A DNA stretch of 64,000 nt from Streptomyces sp. PCS3-D2. GTDB taxonomy: Bacteria > Actinomycetota > Actinomycetes > Streptomycetales > Streptomycetaceae. The notes beneath the pieces are model-generated. The model was not told where the DNA came from and did not search any database. It was given only the letters and a program-made list of their open reading frames with translations. Location of the stretch: assembly GCF_000612545.2 (NCBI RefSeq), contig NZ_CP097800.1:372001-436000 (forward strand), written 5' to 3'. Both the position numbers and the translations under genes were made by a program. Positions 29,642 through 34,296 of the stretch are shown here, piece by piece. Each line of letters begins with the position of its first letter. The first letter of the stretch is position 1.

Positions 29642-29718
29642 TGGCAGGGGCGGCAGGATTCGAACCTGCGGCCTACGGTTTTGGAGACCGTTGCTCTGAC
29701 CGACTGAGCTACACCCCT
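29642..29718 (-). tRNA. tRNA-Trp (anticodon CCA)
   Basis: Cloverleaf on the minus strand. Acceptor AGGGGTG pairs with CGCCCCT, the D-arm is GCTCAGTCGGTCAGAGC, the anticodon stem ACGGT/ACCGT encloses loop CTCCAAA (anticodon CCA), and the T-arm is GCAGGTTCGAATCCTGC. Discriminator G and an encoded CCA end (29642-29644). It lies 137 bp upstream of the riboswitch on the same strand. Streptomyces has a tRNA-Trp near secE elsewhere, so this may be an additional copy. Confidence 0.95.
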
Positions 29719-29918: not shown

Positions 29919-31256
29919 ATGCGCCGCAGCATGCTCGGCAGACTGGCCGTAGCCGCCTGTTCCCTCTCCCTGCTGACCGCCTTCGCCCCCGCTGCCGTGG
30001 GCGCGGACGCCGACGCATCCGCCGCAGGCGGGTCGGGCCGCTCGTACAGGAAGGTCGGCTACTTCACGCAATGGGGCGTCTACGGACGGGACTTCCAGGT
30101 CCAGGACCTCGACGCGAACGGCTCGGCCGGCAAGCTCACCCACATCAACTACGCCTTCGGCAACGTCAGTGCGGAGGGCAGGTGCTTCACCGGGAACGTC
30201 CCCGGAAAGGCCGACGCCTGGGCCGACTACGCCCGTCCGCTCGATGCCGCGAACTCCGTCGACGGGGTCGCCGACACCTGGGACCAGCCGCTCGCCGGCA
30301 ACTTCAACCAGCTGCGCGAGCTGAAGGCCAAGCACCCCGGCCTGAAGGTGCTGATCTCGCTGGGCGGCTGGAGCTGGTCCACCCACTTCTCCGACGCCGC
30401 GCTCACCCCGGCCTCCCGCAAGGCCCTCGTCGCGTCCTGCATCGACCTGTACATCAAGGGCAACCTCCCCCAGGACGGCACGCGCGGTGGTGCCGGAGCC
30501 GCCGCCGACGTGTTCGACGGCATCGACCTCGACTGGGAGTGGCCCGGCTCCGCGGGCGACACCGACACGAAGTACCGGCCCGAGGACAAGCGCAACTTCA
30601 CCGCGCTCGTCAAGGAGTTCCGCACCCAGCTCGACGCGTACGCACGGAGCCGGAAGAAGGCCAGGTACGAGCTGACCGCCTTCGTCCCGACCGCGCCCGC
30701 CAAGATCGACGCCGGCTTCGACGTCCGCCGGATCATGCGCGACCTGGATTTCGTCAACCTCCAGGGATACGACTTCCACGTCTCCGGCGAACCGCGGACC
30801 GCACAGCAGTCGGCTCTGTACGCCCGTGACGACTTCAGCGTCCACGGCACCGTCGAGGCCTGGAAGCGGCGCGGGGCGCCCGCGCACAAGCTCGTGATGG
30901 GCATGCCGTTCTACGGACAGGGCTGGACCGGTGTCGTCGGCGGCGGGGACGGAATGGGCCGGCCCGCCACCGGACCCGCCCCGGCCACCTGGGCCGCCGG
31001 ATACGAGGACTACAAGGCTCTGAAGAAGCTCGCCGATTCGGGCGCCTACCAGGTCCACCGGGACAGGCGCGGCGGGCACGCCTGGCTGTTCGACGGCACC
31101 ACCCTGTGGACGTACGACGACCCCCGGGTGCTGCGCGTCAAGACCGGATACATCCGCGAAATGGGCCTGGGCGGGGCGATGTTCTGGTCGCTCGACGCCG
31201 ACACCGCGGACGGTGAGCTGATGACGGCCGTCGACCGGGGCCTGCGGGGCCGCTGA
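29919..31256 (+). CDS. Secreted chitinase, glycoside hydrolase family 18
   Basis: 445 residues. Signal peptide (1-29, cleaved near VGA-DAD), then a GH18 TIM barrel with SLGGWSWS on strand 3 and the catalytic DGIDLDWEW (D200, D203, D205, acid/base Glu207). MGMPFYGQGW and AMFWSLDADT complete the barrel. It belongs to subfamily A by length and insertion pattern, and no carbohydrate-binding domain is attached. Hydrolyses beta-1,4-GlcNAc links in chitin. AAGGAAG precedes the ATG. The upstream dre site places it in the DasR/GlcNAc regulon. A perfect hairpin terminator follows. Confidence 0.95.
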   Translation: MRRSMLGRLAVAACSLSLLTAFAPAAVGADADASAAGGSGRSYRKVGYFTQWGVYGRDFQVQDLDANGSAGKLTHINYAFGNVSAEGRCFTGNVPGKADAWADYARPLDAANSVDGVADTWDQPLAGNFNQLRELKAKHPGLKVLISLGGWSWSTHFSDAALTPASRKALVASCIDLYIKGNLPQDGTRGGAGAAADVFDGIDLDWEWPGSAGDTDTKYRPEDKRNFTALVKEFRTQLDAYARSRKKARYELTAFVPTAPAKIDAGFDVRRIMRDLDFVNLQGYDFHVSGEPRTAQQSALYARDDFSVHGTVEAWKRRGAPAHKLVMGMPFYGQGWTGVVGGGDGMGRPATGPAPATWAAGYEDYKALKKLADSGAYQVHRDRRGGHAWLFDGTTLWTYDDPRVLRVKTGYIREMGLGGAMFWSLDADTADGELMTAVDRGLRGR

Positions 31257-31258
31257 CC

Positions 31259-31300
31259 GGCGCCGCCGGGCCGTGGAGATCCGTCCGGCCCGGCGGCGCC
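31259..31300. terminator. Strong terminator after the chitinase
   Basis: Perfect 15-bp inverted repeat (arm GGCGCCGCCGGGCCG) with a 12-nt loop, starting 3 bp after the stop codon. Confidence 0.88.
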
Positions 31301-31787
31301 CCTCCACGTACGCCCCCCGCAGGACCCGGACGGGCGCGACGGCACGGGCGGGCCGCCTCCCCGCCCTCTGACGCCGCCCGATCCGAAGCGGCGGCCGATC
31401 CGAAGCGGCGGCCGATCCGAAGCGGCGGCCGTCACCACCATCACCGCCGGGCCGGGTCACTGATCCGCAACCCGTGCCACCGGAGCGGACCTGGTCGGGG
31501 GCCCGCTCACCGCTCCGCCCCTGCCCGGTGTCCGGCCGGGCAGCCGCTCTGCGCGCAGGCGGAGGTGGTCCGCCCCCGCGGCCGCGCCCTGGACGACGAG
31601 GGGAACGCCTCGTACGCGCCCTCCCTGCACGCGGCGGCCGAGCCACCGGCGCCCCTGCCGTGACCCCGGTGGGTGCCCGGAAATGGCCTCCGGGAAAATT
31701 CTTCCGATTAACTGTTATCGGGGCCCCCCTCCGCGGTCTCCCATGCATCGGGCATCATCGACCGCCGGTACGGACAGGGACATTCAC
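31301..31787. other. Non-coding region with a possible gene relic
   Basis: 487 bp between the chitinase terminator and the sigma-CAP gene. It holds a triple 17-bp repeat (31380-31430) and, from about 31480 to 31665, a stretch with coding-like third-position GC. That stretch ends in an open frame reading ALDDEGNASYAPSLHAAAE and then stop (31663-31665); it has no start or recognisable family, so it may be the tail of a decayed gene. AT-rich sequence at 31690-31725 (TTCTTCCGATTAACTGTTATC) probably belongs to the promoter of the sigma-CAP gene. Confidence 0.4.
31380..31430. repeat. Tandem repeat, 3 x 17 bp
   Basis: Three exact head-to-tail copies of GATCCGAAGCGGCGGCC in non-coding DNA. Each unit contains the short dyad GCCG..CGGC. 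No spacers or cas genes, so not CRISPR. Confidence 0.9.
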
Positions 31788-33377
31788 ATGACTACTCAGC
31801 ACACCGCAGCGCTGGTGGCAGCGGCGCGCCGGGGCGATCCCCGCGCGCAGGACGAGCTCGTCGGCGCCCACCTCCCGCTCGTCTACAACATCGTCGGTCG
31901 GGCCCTGAACGGCTCCTGCGACGTGGACGACGTGGTGCAGGACACGATGCTGCGGGCCCTGGACGGACTGGGCGGTCTGCGCGCGGACGAGTCCTTCCGG
32001 TCCTGGCTGGTGGCCATCGCGATGAACCGGGTGCGGGCGCACTGGCAGGCCCGGCAGAGCGGCTTCGGCGAGAGCTCCCTGGAGTCGGCCTGCGCCGTGG
32101 CCGACCCGGGCGCGGACTTCGTCGACCTGACCGTCGTACGCCTCAACCTGGCGGGCCAGCGACGCGAGACGGCCCGGGCGACGCGCTGGCTGGAACCCGA
32201 CGACCGGGCGCTGCTGTCGCTGTGGTGGCTGGAGTGCGCCGGGGAGCTGACCCGGGCGGAAGTGGCCTCGGCGCTGGAGCTGTCCCCCCAGCACACGGCG
32301 GTCCGGGTGCAGCGGATGAAGGCGCAGCTGGAGGCGGCGCGGGTGGTCGAGCGCGCCCTGGACGCCCAACCGGGTTGCGGGGAGCTGCGGACCGTGCTGG
32401 CAGGCTGGGACGGGCAGCCGTCGGCGCTGTGGCGCAAGCGAATAGCCCGTCACGCCCGCGAGTGCGTCCGGTGCTCCGGGCTGTGGAGCGGCCTGGTCCC
32501 GGCGGAGGGGCTGCTGGCCGGGCTGGCCCTCGTCCCGGTCTCGGCGGCCCTGCTCGCGGGGGTGCGTACGGCAGGCTTCGCCCCGGCTTCCTTCGCGGAC
32601 GAGGCGGTCTCCGCGAACGGCGCCGACGGCGGATTCGGTGAGGCGGCGACGCAGCTCACTCCGGTGGCCGGTACCGGTGGCCGGGGCGCGCTGCGCAAGC
32701 GGCGGCGGAGCCGCCGCCGGGTGGTCGGCGGCGCGGTGGTCGCCGCCTGCGTCGCGGGCGGCGGCCTGGTGTACCTCGGAGGCCTGCCCGGTTCGGGGAG
32801 CCCGAAGGACGAAGGCGGGGCGTCCGCGGCGCCGGTGGCCGTCCTCTCGGCGACCGAGTCCGCCGGAACCCCTTCGGAGTCGGCCTCCCCGTCCCCCTCC
32901 GCCCCGGCGAGCCCTTCGCCGAGTCCGAGCCCCACACCGCGGCGCAGCAGCCCGCCCAGCCCGCGGGCCTCGTCGCCCAAGCCGGCCCCCGCGCCGCCGG
33001 GTATCACCGGCCAGGTGGTGGCCCTGGTCAACACCGAGCGGGCGGCGGCAGGCTGTGGGCCCCTCAAGGAGGACCCGAAGCTGCGGGCTGCGGCGCAGGA
33101 ACACTCCGACGACATGGCCGCACGGGGCTTCTTCGACCACACCAACCCGGACGGAGAGGACCCCGGGGACCGCACGACGGCGGCCGGCTACCGCTGGTCG
33201 ACGTACGGCGAGAACATCGCGAAGGGCCAGCAGACGGCGAAGTCGGTGATGGACTCCTGGATGAAGAGCACCGGGCACCGGGAGAACATCCTCAACTGCT
33301 CCTTCAAGGACATCGGCGTGGGCATCCACCAGGGGGCGGGCGGCCCCTGGTGGACGCAGAACTTCGGCGCGCGGTAG
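31788..33377 (+). CDS. Membrane-tethered ECF sigma factor fused to an extracellular CAP/SCP domain
   Basis: 529 residues in one continuous frame. Sigma region 2 (about 20-88; DVDDVVQDTMLRAL, FRSWLVAIAMNRVRAHW) and region 4 (about 133-185; LEPDDRALLSLWWLE, LELSPQHTAVRVQRMKAQL) make an ECF sigma. An anti-sigma-like segment with H222/C226/C229 (HARECVRC) follows, then an Arg cluster and one membrane helix (312-333), a Ser/Pro-rich wall-spanning linker (360-405), and a CAP domain (405-529) with the conserved H439, H451, E475 and H497. Expected topology: sigma inside, CAP outside. Promoter recognition may be switched by signals sensed at the CAP domain or released by proteolysis (inference). The ATG at 31788 follows AGGGA. 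Confidence 0.9.
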   Translation: MTTQHTAALVAAARRGDPRAQDELVGAHLPLVYNIVGRALNGSCDVDDVVQDTMLRALDGLGGLRADESFRSWLVAIAMNRVRAHWQARQSGFGESSLESACAVADPGADFVDLTVVRLNLAGQRRETARATRWLEPDDRALLSLWWLECAGELTRAEVASALELSPQHTAVRVQRMKAQLEAARVVERALDAQPGCGELRTVLAGWDGQPSALWRKRIARHARECVRCSGLWSGLVPAEGLLAGLALVPVSAALLAGVRTAGFAPASFADEAVSANGADGGFGEAATQLTPVAGTGGRGALRKRRRSRRRVVGGAVVAACVAGGGLVYLGGLPGSGSPKDEGGASAAPVAVLSATESAGTPSESASPSPSAPASPSPSPSPTPRRSSPPSPRASSPKPAPAPPGITGQVVALVNTERAAAGCGPLKEDPKLRAAAQEHSDDMAARGFFDHTNPDGEDPGDRTTAAGYRWSTYGENIAKGQQTAKSVMDSWMKSTGHRENILNCSFKDIGVGIHQGAGGPWWTQNFGAR

Positions 33378-33387
33378 GCGGCCCGAA

Positions 33388-34296
33388 TCAGCCACGGGCG
33401 AGTGCGCGCAACGCTGCGACGCAGTCGGGGTGGCTCGGGGCCCATCCCAGCTCCGCCTTCGCCCTGGCGTTGGACACCCGGAGGTTCGTCGTGACCATCC
33501 GGTGGGCGTAGGGGTAGGCACGCATCAGCCAGCTGGGCGCGTTCAGCGGCCTGGGGGTGGCGAAGGCTTCCGCGACCGCCTTGACGTGCGCGCCGAAGCC
33601 CATCGGGGTGTCGTCGGCGATGTTGTACGCCTGCCCTGCCCGGCCTCCCTCGACGGCGAGCGCCACGGCCCGGCCGGCGTCCGCCAGGTCGACCCAGGGC
33701 AGGACGCGCCCCTGGTCGGCGACCGCCGGAAGCTTCCGGCGGCGCAGCAGATCCACGAGGGCCTCCGTGCCCCCTGCTCCGTAGAACAGGCCGAACCGCA
33801 GGGCGATCCCCTCGATGCCGTCCGCCTCCAGTACGAGCTGCTCCTTGACCCGCATCGCCTCGACGTGGCGGTCCACCGCGCGGTCGCCGGTGGGGCCGAA
33901 GAGGTCCCCCGCCTCGGTGACCACGTGCCGGCCGAAGTCCCGGTAGCCGTAGCCGAAGACCATCGACTCGGCGATGACGCGCCGGGCGCCGAGCTCGCGG
34001 GCGGCCTCCATCAGGTGCCGGGTCCCGATGAGCCGCAGGCCGTCGGTGGCGTACATGTCCCGGTGCCTCATCGGTGCCTCGCGCAGGGCGGTGGCCGCGT
34101 GCACGATCGTGTCGATCCGGAGGCCGGCGACCGCGCCCAGCAGTCCGTCACGGTCCAGCAGATCGGCCCGTACGTCGGATCCGGCACCCCGGCCGAGGCC
34201 GGTCACGGTGTGGCCGGCGCGGGTGAGCGCCGCGGCGATGTGGTGTCCCAGGACTCCGCTCGCCCCGGCCAGCAAGACGTTCTTGGTTTCAGTCAC
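33388..34296 (-). CDS. NAD-dependent epimerase/dehydratase family protein (extended SDR)
   Basis: 302 residues from GTG at 34296; the frame is open to 34332 with an uncharacteristic N-terminus. Rossmann motif LLAGASGVLGHHIA, then DTIVHAATAL, RVIAESMVFGYG and RFGLFYG. The classical YxxxK catalytic pair is not intact: the expected position reads AMRVK (Ala in place of Tyr), and the usual SSxxVYG is ESMVFGYG. It may therefore be an atypical, NAD-binding SDR. Convergent with the sigma-CAP gene, 10 bp apart, and 55 bp downstream of the methyltransferase on the same strand. Confidence 0.85.
   Translation of the reverse strand: MTETKNVLLAGASGVLGHHIAAALTRAGHTVTGLGRGAGSDVRADLLDRDGLLGAVAGLRIDTIVHAATALREAPMRHRDMYATDGLRLIGTRHLMEAARELGARRVIAESMVFGYGYRDFGRHVVTEAGDLFGPTGDRAVDRHVEAMRVKEQLVLEADGIEGIALRFGLFYGAGGTEALVDLLRRRKLPAVADQGRVLPWVDLADAGRAVALAVEGGRAGQAYNIADDTPMGFGAHVKAVAEAFATPRPLNAPSWLMRAYPYAHRMVTTNLRVSNARAKAELGWAPSHPDCVAALRALARG

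Follow-up and report, generated by a model that had tools for sequence, protein, structure and literature searches.

A single gene in a 64,000-nucleotide (nt) stretch of the Streptomyces sp. PCS3-D2 genome (contig NZ_CP097800.1, positions 372,001 to 436,000; hereafter the window, in whose coordinates positions are given) encodes an extracytoplasmic function (ECF) sigma factor that is continued, in the same chain, by a zinc anti-sigma (ZAS) segment, a likely membrane helix, a Ser/Pro-rich linker and a CAP domain. Sequence comparison indicates a real, conserved and self-contained system, for which a promoter and a small regulon can be predicted. We consider it rather probable that the protein is a one-protein switch, in which a tethered sigma factor with a CAP sensor drives transcription of its own gene and also, in several lineages, of genes whose CAP products look exported. 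The features of the gene and its upstream region are listed below; pLDDT and pTM denote the predicted local distance difference test and predicted template modelling scores of AlphaFold.

31788 to 33377, forward strand: gene for ECF sigma factor, ZAS segment, membrane helix, Ser/Pro linker and CAP domain (529 amino acids; 79 of 80 relatives fused in frame).
31713 to 31741, forward strand: promoter-like element TGTTATC-N15-GGTCTCC (boxes 31713-31719 and 31735-31741; 14 of 14 positions match; 46 nt before the start codon).
31772 to 31780, forward strand: conserved leader GGACAGGGA, likely ribosome-binding region (inferred role; from the upstream alignment of 81 loci).
31857 to 32057, forward strand: sigma region 2, residues 24-90 (Pfam PF04542 Sigma70_r2, 1.9e-13; Foldseek matches to sigmaE, AlgU, CnrH and SigW).
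32178 to 32357, forward strand: sigma region 4 helix-turn-helix, residues 131-190 (overlapping the TIGR02937 match at residues 20-182; limits set by eye).
32376 to 32474, forward strand: ZAS ligand pattern C197-x24-H222-x3-C226-x2-C229 (all four ligands invariant over the 81 aligned rows).
32499 to 32570, forward strand: residues 238-261, a conserved hydrophobic segment that includes PAEGLLAGLALVPV and is interpreted as the last helix of the anti-sigma part, not as a membrane helix.
32721 to 32777, forward strand: residues 312-330, likely the single membrane helix, preceded by an Arg-rich stretch (Kyte-Doolittle 2.06).
32808 to 32999, forward strand: Ser/Pro-rich linker, residues 341-404 (from the sequence; pLDDT below 50 over most of the linker).
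33021 to 33365, forward strand: CAP domain, residues 412-526, with the Cys pair C423/C504 (PF00188, 3.1e-25).

The open frame is uninterrupted from the ATG at 31788 to the stop at 33377. A longer in-frame start is present at 31683, and the start at 31788 is preferred because of homology and the position of the promoter-like element. Sigma-70 regions 2 and 4 occur in ECF spacing, and the NCBIfam model for ECF sigma-70 factors, TIGR02937, matches with 60.5 bits against a cut-off of 42.9. The Pfam model Sigma70_r4 gave no match at E 1 in the window protein; the region 4 helix-turn-helix is visible as a sub-threshold Pfam helix-turn-helix match, through TIGR02937 and as AlphaFold helices. In the 81-row alignment, on which all row counts are based, region 4 is the best-conserved part of the protein (mean identity to the window sequence 0.92), and the Ser/Pro linker is the least conserved, with zero invariant residues. 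The PF00188 match covers the CAP domain entirely (profile positions 2-117 of 117), and TIGR02909, a model for YkwD-type CAP proteins, matches residues 409-526 with 108.6 bits, under its cut-off of 171. The CAP cysteines are kept in 80 (C423) and 79 (C504) of the 81 rows and presumably form a disulfide. In the CAP His/Glu tetrad, whose assignment to particular residues is our assumption, 80 of 81 rows retain H451, E475 and H497, and 74 have Ala in place of E499. Foldseek searches returned ECF sigma factors for the inner half of the protein, including the anti-sigma co-structures sigmaE/RseA, AlgU/MucA, CnrH/CnrY and SigW/RsiW (best E 3.3e-5), and CAP proteins such as GAPR-1 (E 2.7e-3) and 4ifa (E 2.8e-3) for the outer half; in a viral structure library the top matches were phage sigma factors and SCP proteins. 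The AlphaFold model of the whole chain has a pTM of 0.33, and the arrangement of the domains is therefore not fixed by the model.

An initial annotation of this DNA, made from the letters alone, had described one continuous chain leading from sigma factor to CAP domain, and both the intact frame and the in-frame fusion in the relatives agree with it. The domain search that it had proposed recovered Sigma70_r2 (residues 24-90) and CAP (412-526) in Pfam. Two of its statements hold in part: both sigma regions had been called recognisable, which is borne out by Sigma70_r2 and TIGR02937 and not by the Pfam region 4 model, and all four CAP His/Glu residues had been called conserved, which is so for the window protein itself and, at E499, not for most of the alignment.

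The ligands that follow the sigma regions fit C-x~25-H-x3-C-x2-C, which we take to be the ligand pattern of ZAS domains. AlphaFold renders the segment helical, with helices at residues 198-203 and 213-225 and pLDDT blocks of 86-90, in a model with a pTM of 0.53. Pfam zf-HC2 (PF13490) did not match the window protein at E 1, and the protein is absent among the 9 PF13490 matches in its own genome. The Cys/His segment HARECVRC, on which the initial annotation had relied, is present and forms an incomplete part of this fuller pattern, which adds the upstream C197. The proposal that no separate anti-sigma factor is needed agrees with the built-in ZAS pattern and with the two neighbouring genes, which encode a GH18 chitinase and an epimerase and no anti-sigma factor.

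Two stretches of the protein are hydrophobic, residues 241-259 (Kyte-Doolittle 2.15) and 312-330 (2.06), where 1.6 is the usual threshold for a membrane stretch. Judged from the sequence, residues 312-330 are likely to form a single membrane helix that places the CAP domain outside. The net charge around this stretch is +9 before and -1 after in the window protein, with means of +8.0 and -1.6 over the 81 rows; because positive charge precedes it and negative charge follows, the chain would cross here from inside to outside. AlphaFold places a helix at residues 305-324 with low pLDDT. Speaking against this assignment, the threshold is reached at the presumed membrane helix in 66 of 81 rows and at the stretch read as soluble in 78. 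A topology with two helices and the CAP domain inside is nevertheless held unlikely: the Arg-rich stretch between the two segments has a net charge of at least +5 in 81 of 81 rows, in some of the sister proteins the first stretch is, by eye, shortened or contains polar residues that break it, and an outside location also suits the Ser/Pro linker and the Cys pair of the CAP domain. The initial annotation had given a single transmembrane segment at residues 312-333; one likely helix, at 312-330, remains of this, and a second hydrophobic stretch exists at 241-259. The presumed membrane helix contains a Cys at residue 321 (32748-32750), which 76 of 81 rows retain. A lipobox at this Cys (V-A-A-C) was considered and rejected: Val, Leu or Ile stands before C321 in 15 of 81 rows, hydrophobic residues follow C321, and distant relatives, L088 and L090 among them, do not have this Cys.

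A scan of GTDB species genomes gave at least 593 matching stretches. At least 431 of them code for something related to some part of the protein, and the relatives studied are the best 80 of these, a set of best matches and no census. All 80 are labelled Streptomyces except one 'Actinobacteria bacterium'. Sigma factor and CAP domain share one frame in 79 of them, and in L084 the CAP domain lies in another frame. Further CAP-type relatives come from plasmid records of Kitasatospora, Embleya, Streptantibioticus and Streptomyces.

Alignment of the 81 upstream regions revealed two conserved boxes separated by a spacer of constant length, upstream of which conservation is low. Scored as YGTTATC-N15-GRTCTCC, with at least 12 of 14 positions matching within 200 nt upstream, the element is present at 78 of 81 loci and in 0 of 393 control windows further upstream, where the best score was 11. 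It sits 44-52 nt before the start in 77 of the 78 positive loci. The three misses are L080, which has both boxes with a spacer of 16, L087, which has a GGTCCCC variant and a spacer of 16, and L046, whose start is probably wrong. A scan for sigma-70 promoters and terminators over 31200-33500 found none. An autoregulated promoter upstream of the gene had been suggested as worth searching for in the initial annotation, and a promoter-like element does lie there; it is new in this analysis. We infer that the element is read by the sigma factor encoded behind it.

The element also stands before genes for separate CAP proteins. Whole genomes were searched for the exact pattern YGTTAT-N16-GRTCTCC, with the reversed pattern as a control. 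The window's own 7.63-Mb genome contains two exact sites and 0 control matches; one is the gene's own promoter, and the other lies 45 nt before the gene of a 305-amino-acid CAP protein (PF00188, 1.1e-12). The best hydrophobic 19-mer of this protein begins at residue 49 (Kyte-Doolittle 1.71), and from its sequence it looks exported, either secreted or membrane-anchored. In 29 other orthologue-bearing genomes, there were 33 exact sites and no control match in any of the 29. A sigma gene of the same family as the window gene starts 44-56 nt after 27 of these sites, and four of the remaining six lie 43-47 nt before CAP genes (L137, L164, L167 and L168). The L145 site belongs to a second sigma gene of the family, 62% identical, in the genome of L080. 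The target CAP genes at L137, L164 and L167 are 57-73% identical to the target in the own genome, and because of this kinship the CAP genes at the four sites in other genomes represent two events rather than four. The target CAP domains closest to the sensor CAP are those of L168 (in G051; 67.5% identical) and L088 (61.9%). By a rough estimate that assumes five CAP genes, the chance of one random site falling within 100 nt before one of them is 3.3e-5.

A search with one more base in the pattern, in 26 genomes (the own genome and 25 relatives), found sites in six, one site each, all 44-47 nt before a family sigma gene. The looser pattern GTTAT-N18-TCTCC gave 37 sites in 20 genomes, 19 before a family sigma gene and 3 before CAP genes, and some of its sites may belong to sister sigma factors. 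A scan of the own genome that allowed two mismatches returned at least 179 sites against 13 reversed-control matches and was too loose to use. Among ten CAP-type plasmid relatives, four (L088, L089, L213 and L214) adjoin a separate CAP gene with the motif. The motif matches at 14 of 14 positions before both the sigma gene and the CAP gene in L088; in L214 it matches at 14 of 14 before the CAP gene and 13 of 14 before the sigma gene; in L213 it matches at 13 of 14 before both genes, both with the changed box TGTTGTC; and in L089 it matches at 12 of 14 before the CAP gene.

A number of observations weigh against the proposed control of CAP genes. In 23 of the 29 other genomes no exact site was found except before a sigma gene, and the exact sites L142 and L166, which do not belong to a sigma gene of the family, have no CAP gene. 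The target CAP proteins of the own genome and of G027, G028 and G029 are orthologous (57-73%) and count as one event, and their CAP domains share only 29-32% identity with the sensor CAP. The looser pattern leaves 15 of its 37 sites at neither kind of gene and has 10 reversed-control matches. In L026, L034, L041 and L056, CAP genes in the vicinity of the sigma gene were examined as targets and rejected, as they have no motif (best 8-10 of 14). On plasmids, the sigma gene of L089 has no recognisable element of its own (best 9 of 13), the CAP start lies 97 nt from the motif in L213 and 91 nt in L214, compared with 46 nt at the window gene, and six of the ten relatives (L090, L091, L099, L212, L215 and L216) have no adjoining CAP gene within the fetched stretch.

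The sigma-ZAS module is also found with outer domains other than CAP, being joined to AbfB, a sugar-binding kind of domain, in L093-L096, to a GH99-like domain in L092 and to a beta-helix in L097. In L093-L095, which are close relatives on Streptomyces plasmids, a gene for an alpha-L-arabinofuranosidase lies downstream (2.9 kb away in L093) and is preceded by a related element, TTYYGTTACG...CTCC. No recognisable element was found before the sigma genes of L093-L095 themselves, and L096 has no arabinofuranosidase gene in the stretch shown. In a 34-row tree, a branch with support 90/89 (not starred) separates all 27 CAP-bearing rows from the others, whose placement is left unsure by long branches. 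Tentatively, and with less than even confidence, we suggest that the outer domain matches in kind the exported product under control of the sigma factor (CAP for CAP, AbfB for arabinofuranosidase), so that the two would compete for the same ligand in a self-limiting loop. If this is true, the CAP branch would be a dedicated regulatory circuit for bacterial CAP proteins.

Inside the cell, the membrane anchor and the ZAS segment of its own chain would keep the sigma factor silent. The CAP domain, held outside on the Ser/Pro stalk, would serve as sensor, its probable target being a component of the cell wall or envelope. Once the CAP domain is engaged, the chain may be cut or rearranged at the membrane, most likely by regulated proteolysis, after which the ZAS piece would be removed. 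The freed sigma factor would then direct RNA polymerase to YGTTATC-N15-GRTCTCC promoters, with its own gene providing positive feedback, and in several lineages the loop could be closed by the exported CAP product binding a ligand of the same kind. Proteolytic release, judged probable here, has been proposed for ECF52 (PMC5826349) and characterised for IutY (PMC8999054). A first guess for the CAP ligand, by analogy, is peptidoglycan, because the model of DalA, described as a peptidoglycan binder in the relevant passage of PMC10470522, matches the CAP segment below its cut-off.

Other explanations of the fusion and its element can be weighed against this switch. If another sigma factor read the element, the sigma-CAP gene and the CAP genes would merely be co-regulated; related elements before the arabinofuranosidase genes beside AbfB-type sisters mean that cross-recognition could occur. 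We regard this as unlikely, since the element tracks the sigma-CAP gene at 78 of 81 loci and, in L213, the sigma and CAP promoters carry an identical box change. It might also be the ZAS segment itself that senses thiol or zinc stress inside and frees the sigma factor, leaving the CAP domain as a mere wall anchor. Redox switching of ZAS domains is known from RsrA, and the invariance of the Cys/His ligands across all rows would suit such a role. However, the CAP domain is nearly as conserved as sigma region 2 (0.78 versus 0.80), and an inert anchor would leave unexplained why the kind of outer domain equals that of the promoter-linked target genes, so that we hold sensing by the ZAS segment to be quite unlikely.

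The CAP domain could, alternatively, be a working product that is shed outside, with the sigma part reporting its release to the gene. The retained Cys pair and core of the domain would be expected of such a product, and the target genes do encode free-standing CAP proteins; yet shedding would make a separate exported CAP gene under the same element redundant, and for the AbfB-bearing sister proteins a sensor role is more natural. Altogether, shedding appears highly improbable. The initial annotation had itself named a frameshift error joining two neighbouring genes, with homologues split in two, as what would overturn it. The different frame of the CAP domain in L084 is of this kind, but split homologues are not the rule: the fusion stays in frame in 79 of the 80 assemblies from other genomes, which already refutes a frameshift or assembly error and leaves it a negligible chance.

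To our knowledge, the ligands of bacterial CAP domains are mostly unclear. A CAP sensor with its element and candidate CAP targets would make the ligand question testable, as a promoter reporter would read the signal that the CAP domain senses. The sister proteins suggest a more general rule, namely that the signal of a fused sigma factor may be guessed from the genes it controls.

The neighbourhood of the gene is variable. Upstream, on the same strand, the GH18 chitinase gene occupies 29919-31256 of the window, and a tRNA-Trp gene (cca) lies at 29642-29718 on the minus strand. No neighbour is stable across the 80 loci, which reach at most about 5 kb per side: GH18 genes occur at 11, epimerase genes at 3, and methyltransferase-like and decarboxylase-like genes, both named by eye, at 5 and 19.

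Several further observations concern the family and its looser sites. Six GTTAT-N18-TCTCC sites (L185, L186, L208, L199, L202 and L196) end in CGTCTCC, five of them after a T-rich stretch, and in five of the six the first start codon is only 5-6 nt away. The genes behind them encode a repeated exported-looking family (L185, L186 and L208), alginate-lyase-type proteins (L199 and L202) and a GH20 protein (L196); these sites are possibly regulons of sister sigma factors. At L210 (G039:C32), a GTTAT-N18-TCTCC site has another family sigma gene (62% identical) nearby on the opposite strand. In Embleya, a 13 of 14 motif precedes a protein with a weak reprolysin-like match and a lectin domain (L212:6315-8566). 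At L098:4001-4528, a family sigma region whose frame stops soon after region 4, without ZAS or outer parts, looks like a remnant. The GH99-like fusion L092 adjoins a gene annotated as a xylosidase, and the beta-helix of L097 is right-handed.

Several known systems resemble the window protein, as far as the passages cited describe them. No paper on an ECF-CAP fusion was found among the literature matches listed; these did not cover the ECF classification papers, and absence from print is not claimed. SigI/RsgI of Clostridium thermocellum, in which a SigI-type sigma factor controls cellulosome components, differs in having two proteins, another sigma family and carbohydrate-binding modules (PMC10575876). 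DalA, a divisome-associated lipoprotein, is similar in that its NCBIfam model matches the CAP segment of the window protein (80.8 bits, under the cut-off of 200), and it is said to bind peptidoglycan non-covalently; unlike the window protein, it is a free lipoprotein of Rhodobacterales without a sigma factor, and the passage does not term it a CAP protein (PMC10470522). IutY of Pseudomonas putida (ECF243) likewise combines a sigma factor and a membrane anti-sigma factor in one chain and is activated by regulated proteolysis, but it serves iron-siderophore surface signalling, and the passage on it mentions no CAP domain (PMC8999054).

The closest likeness is to ECF52 and ECF53, in line with the statement of the initial annotation that actinobacterial ECF sigma factors with membrane and carbohydrate-binding extensions are known. 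ECF52, represented by SCO4117 of Streptomyces coelicolor and found in Actinobacteria, also has sigma factor, zinc finger, membrane region and proline-rich extension in one chain, and positive autoregulation and release by a protease have been proposed for it; its chain ends in a carbohydrate-binding domain, whereas the window protein ends in CAP, and its reported element, CSGYN-17-SRHA, is unlike YGTTATC-N15-GRTCTCC (PMC5826349). The own genome holds a second sigma fusion, of an ECF sigma factor with a RicinB lectin in ECF52 layout (L177:595-2205, minus strand, C1 near 3676796). It has a sub-threshold zinc-finger match and resembles ECF52 in its layout, and BLAST detected no significant similarity between it and the window protein. 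ECF53 and ECF48 share with the window protein a C-terminal ZAS-like segment, one or two membrane helices and extensions of up to 400 residues, and the passages on them mention no CAP domain (PMC8999054; PMC10766802). The window protein may well belong to ECF53, because some ECF52/53 members carry glycosyl hydrolase or carbohydrate-binding domains (PMC10766802), as its sister proteins do. Its layout follows the known ECF52/ECF53 kind, with CAP as the outer domain setting it apart.
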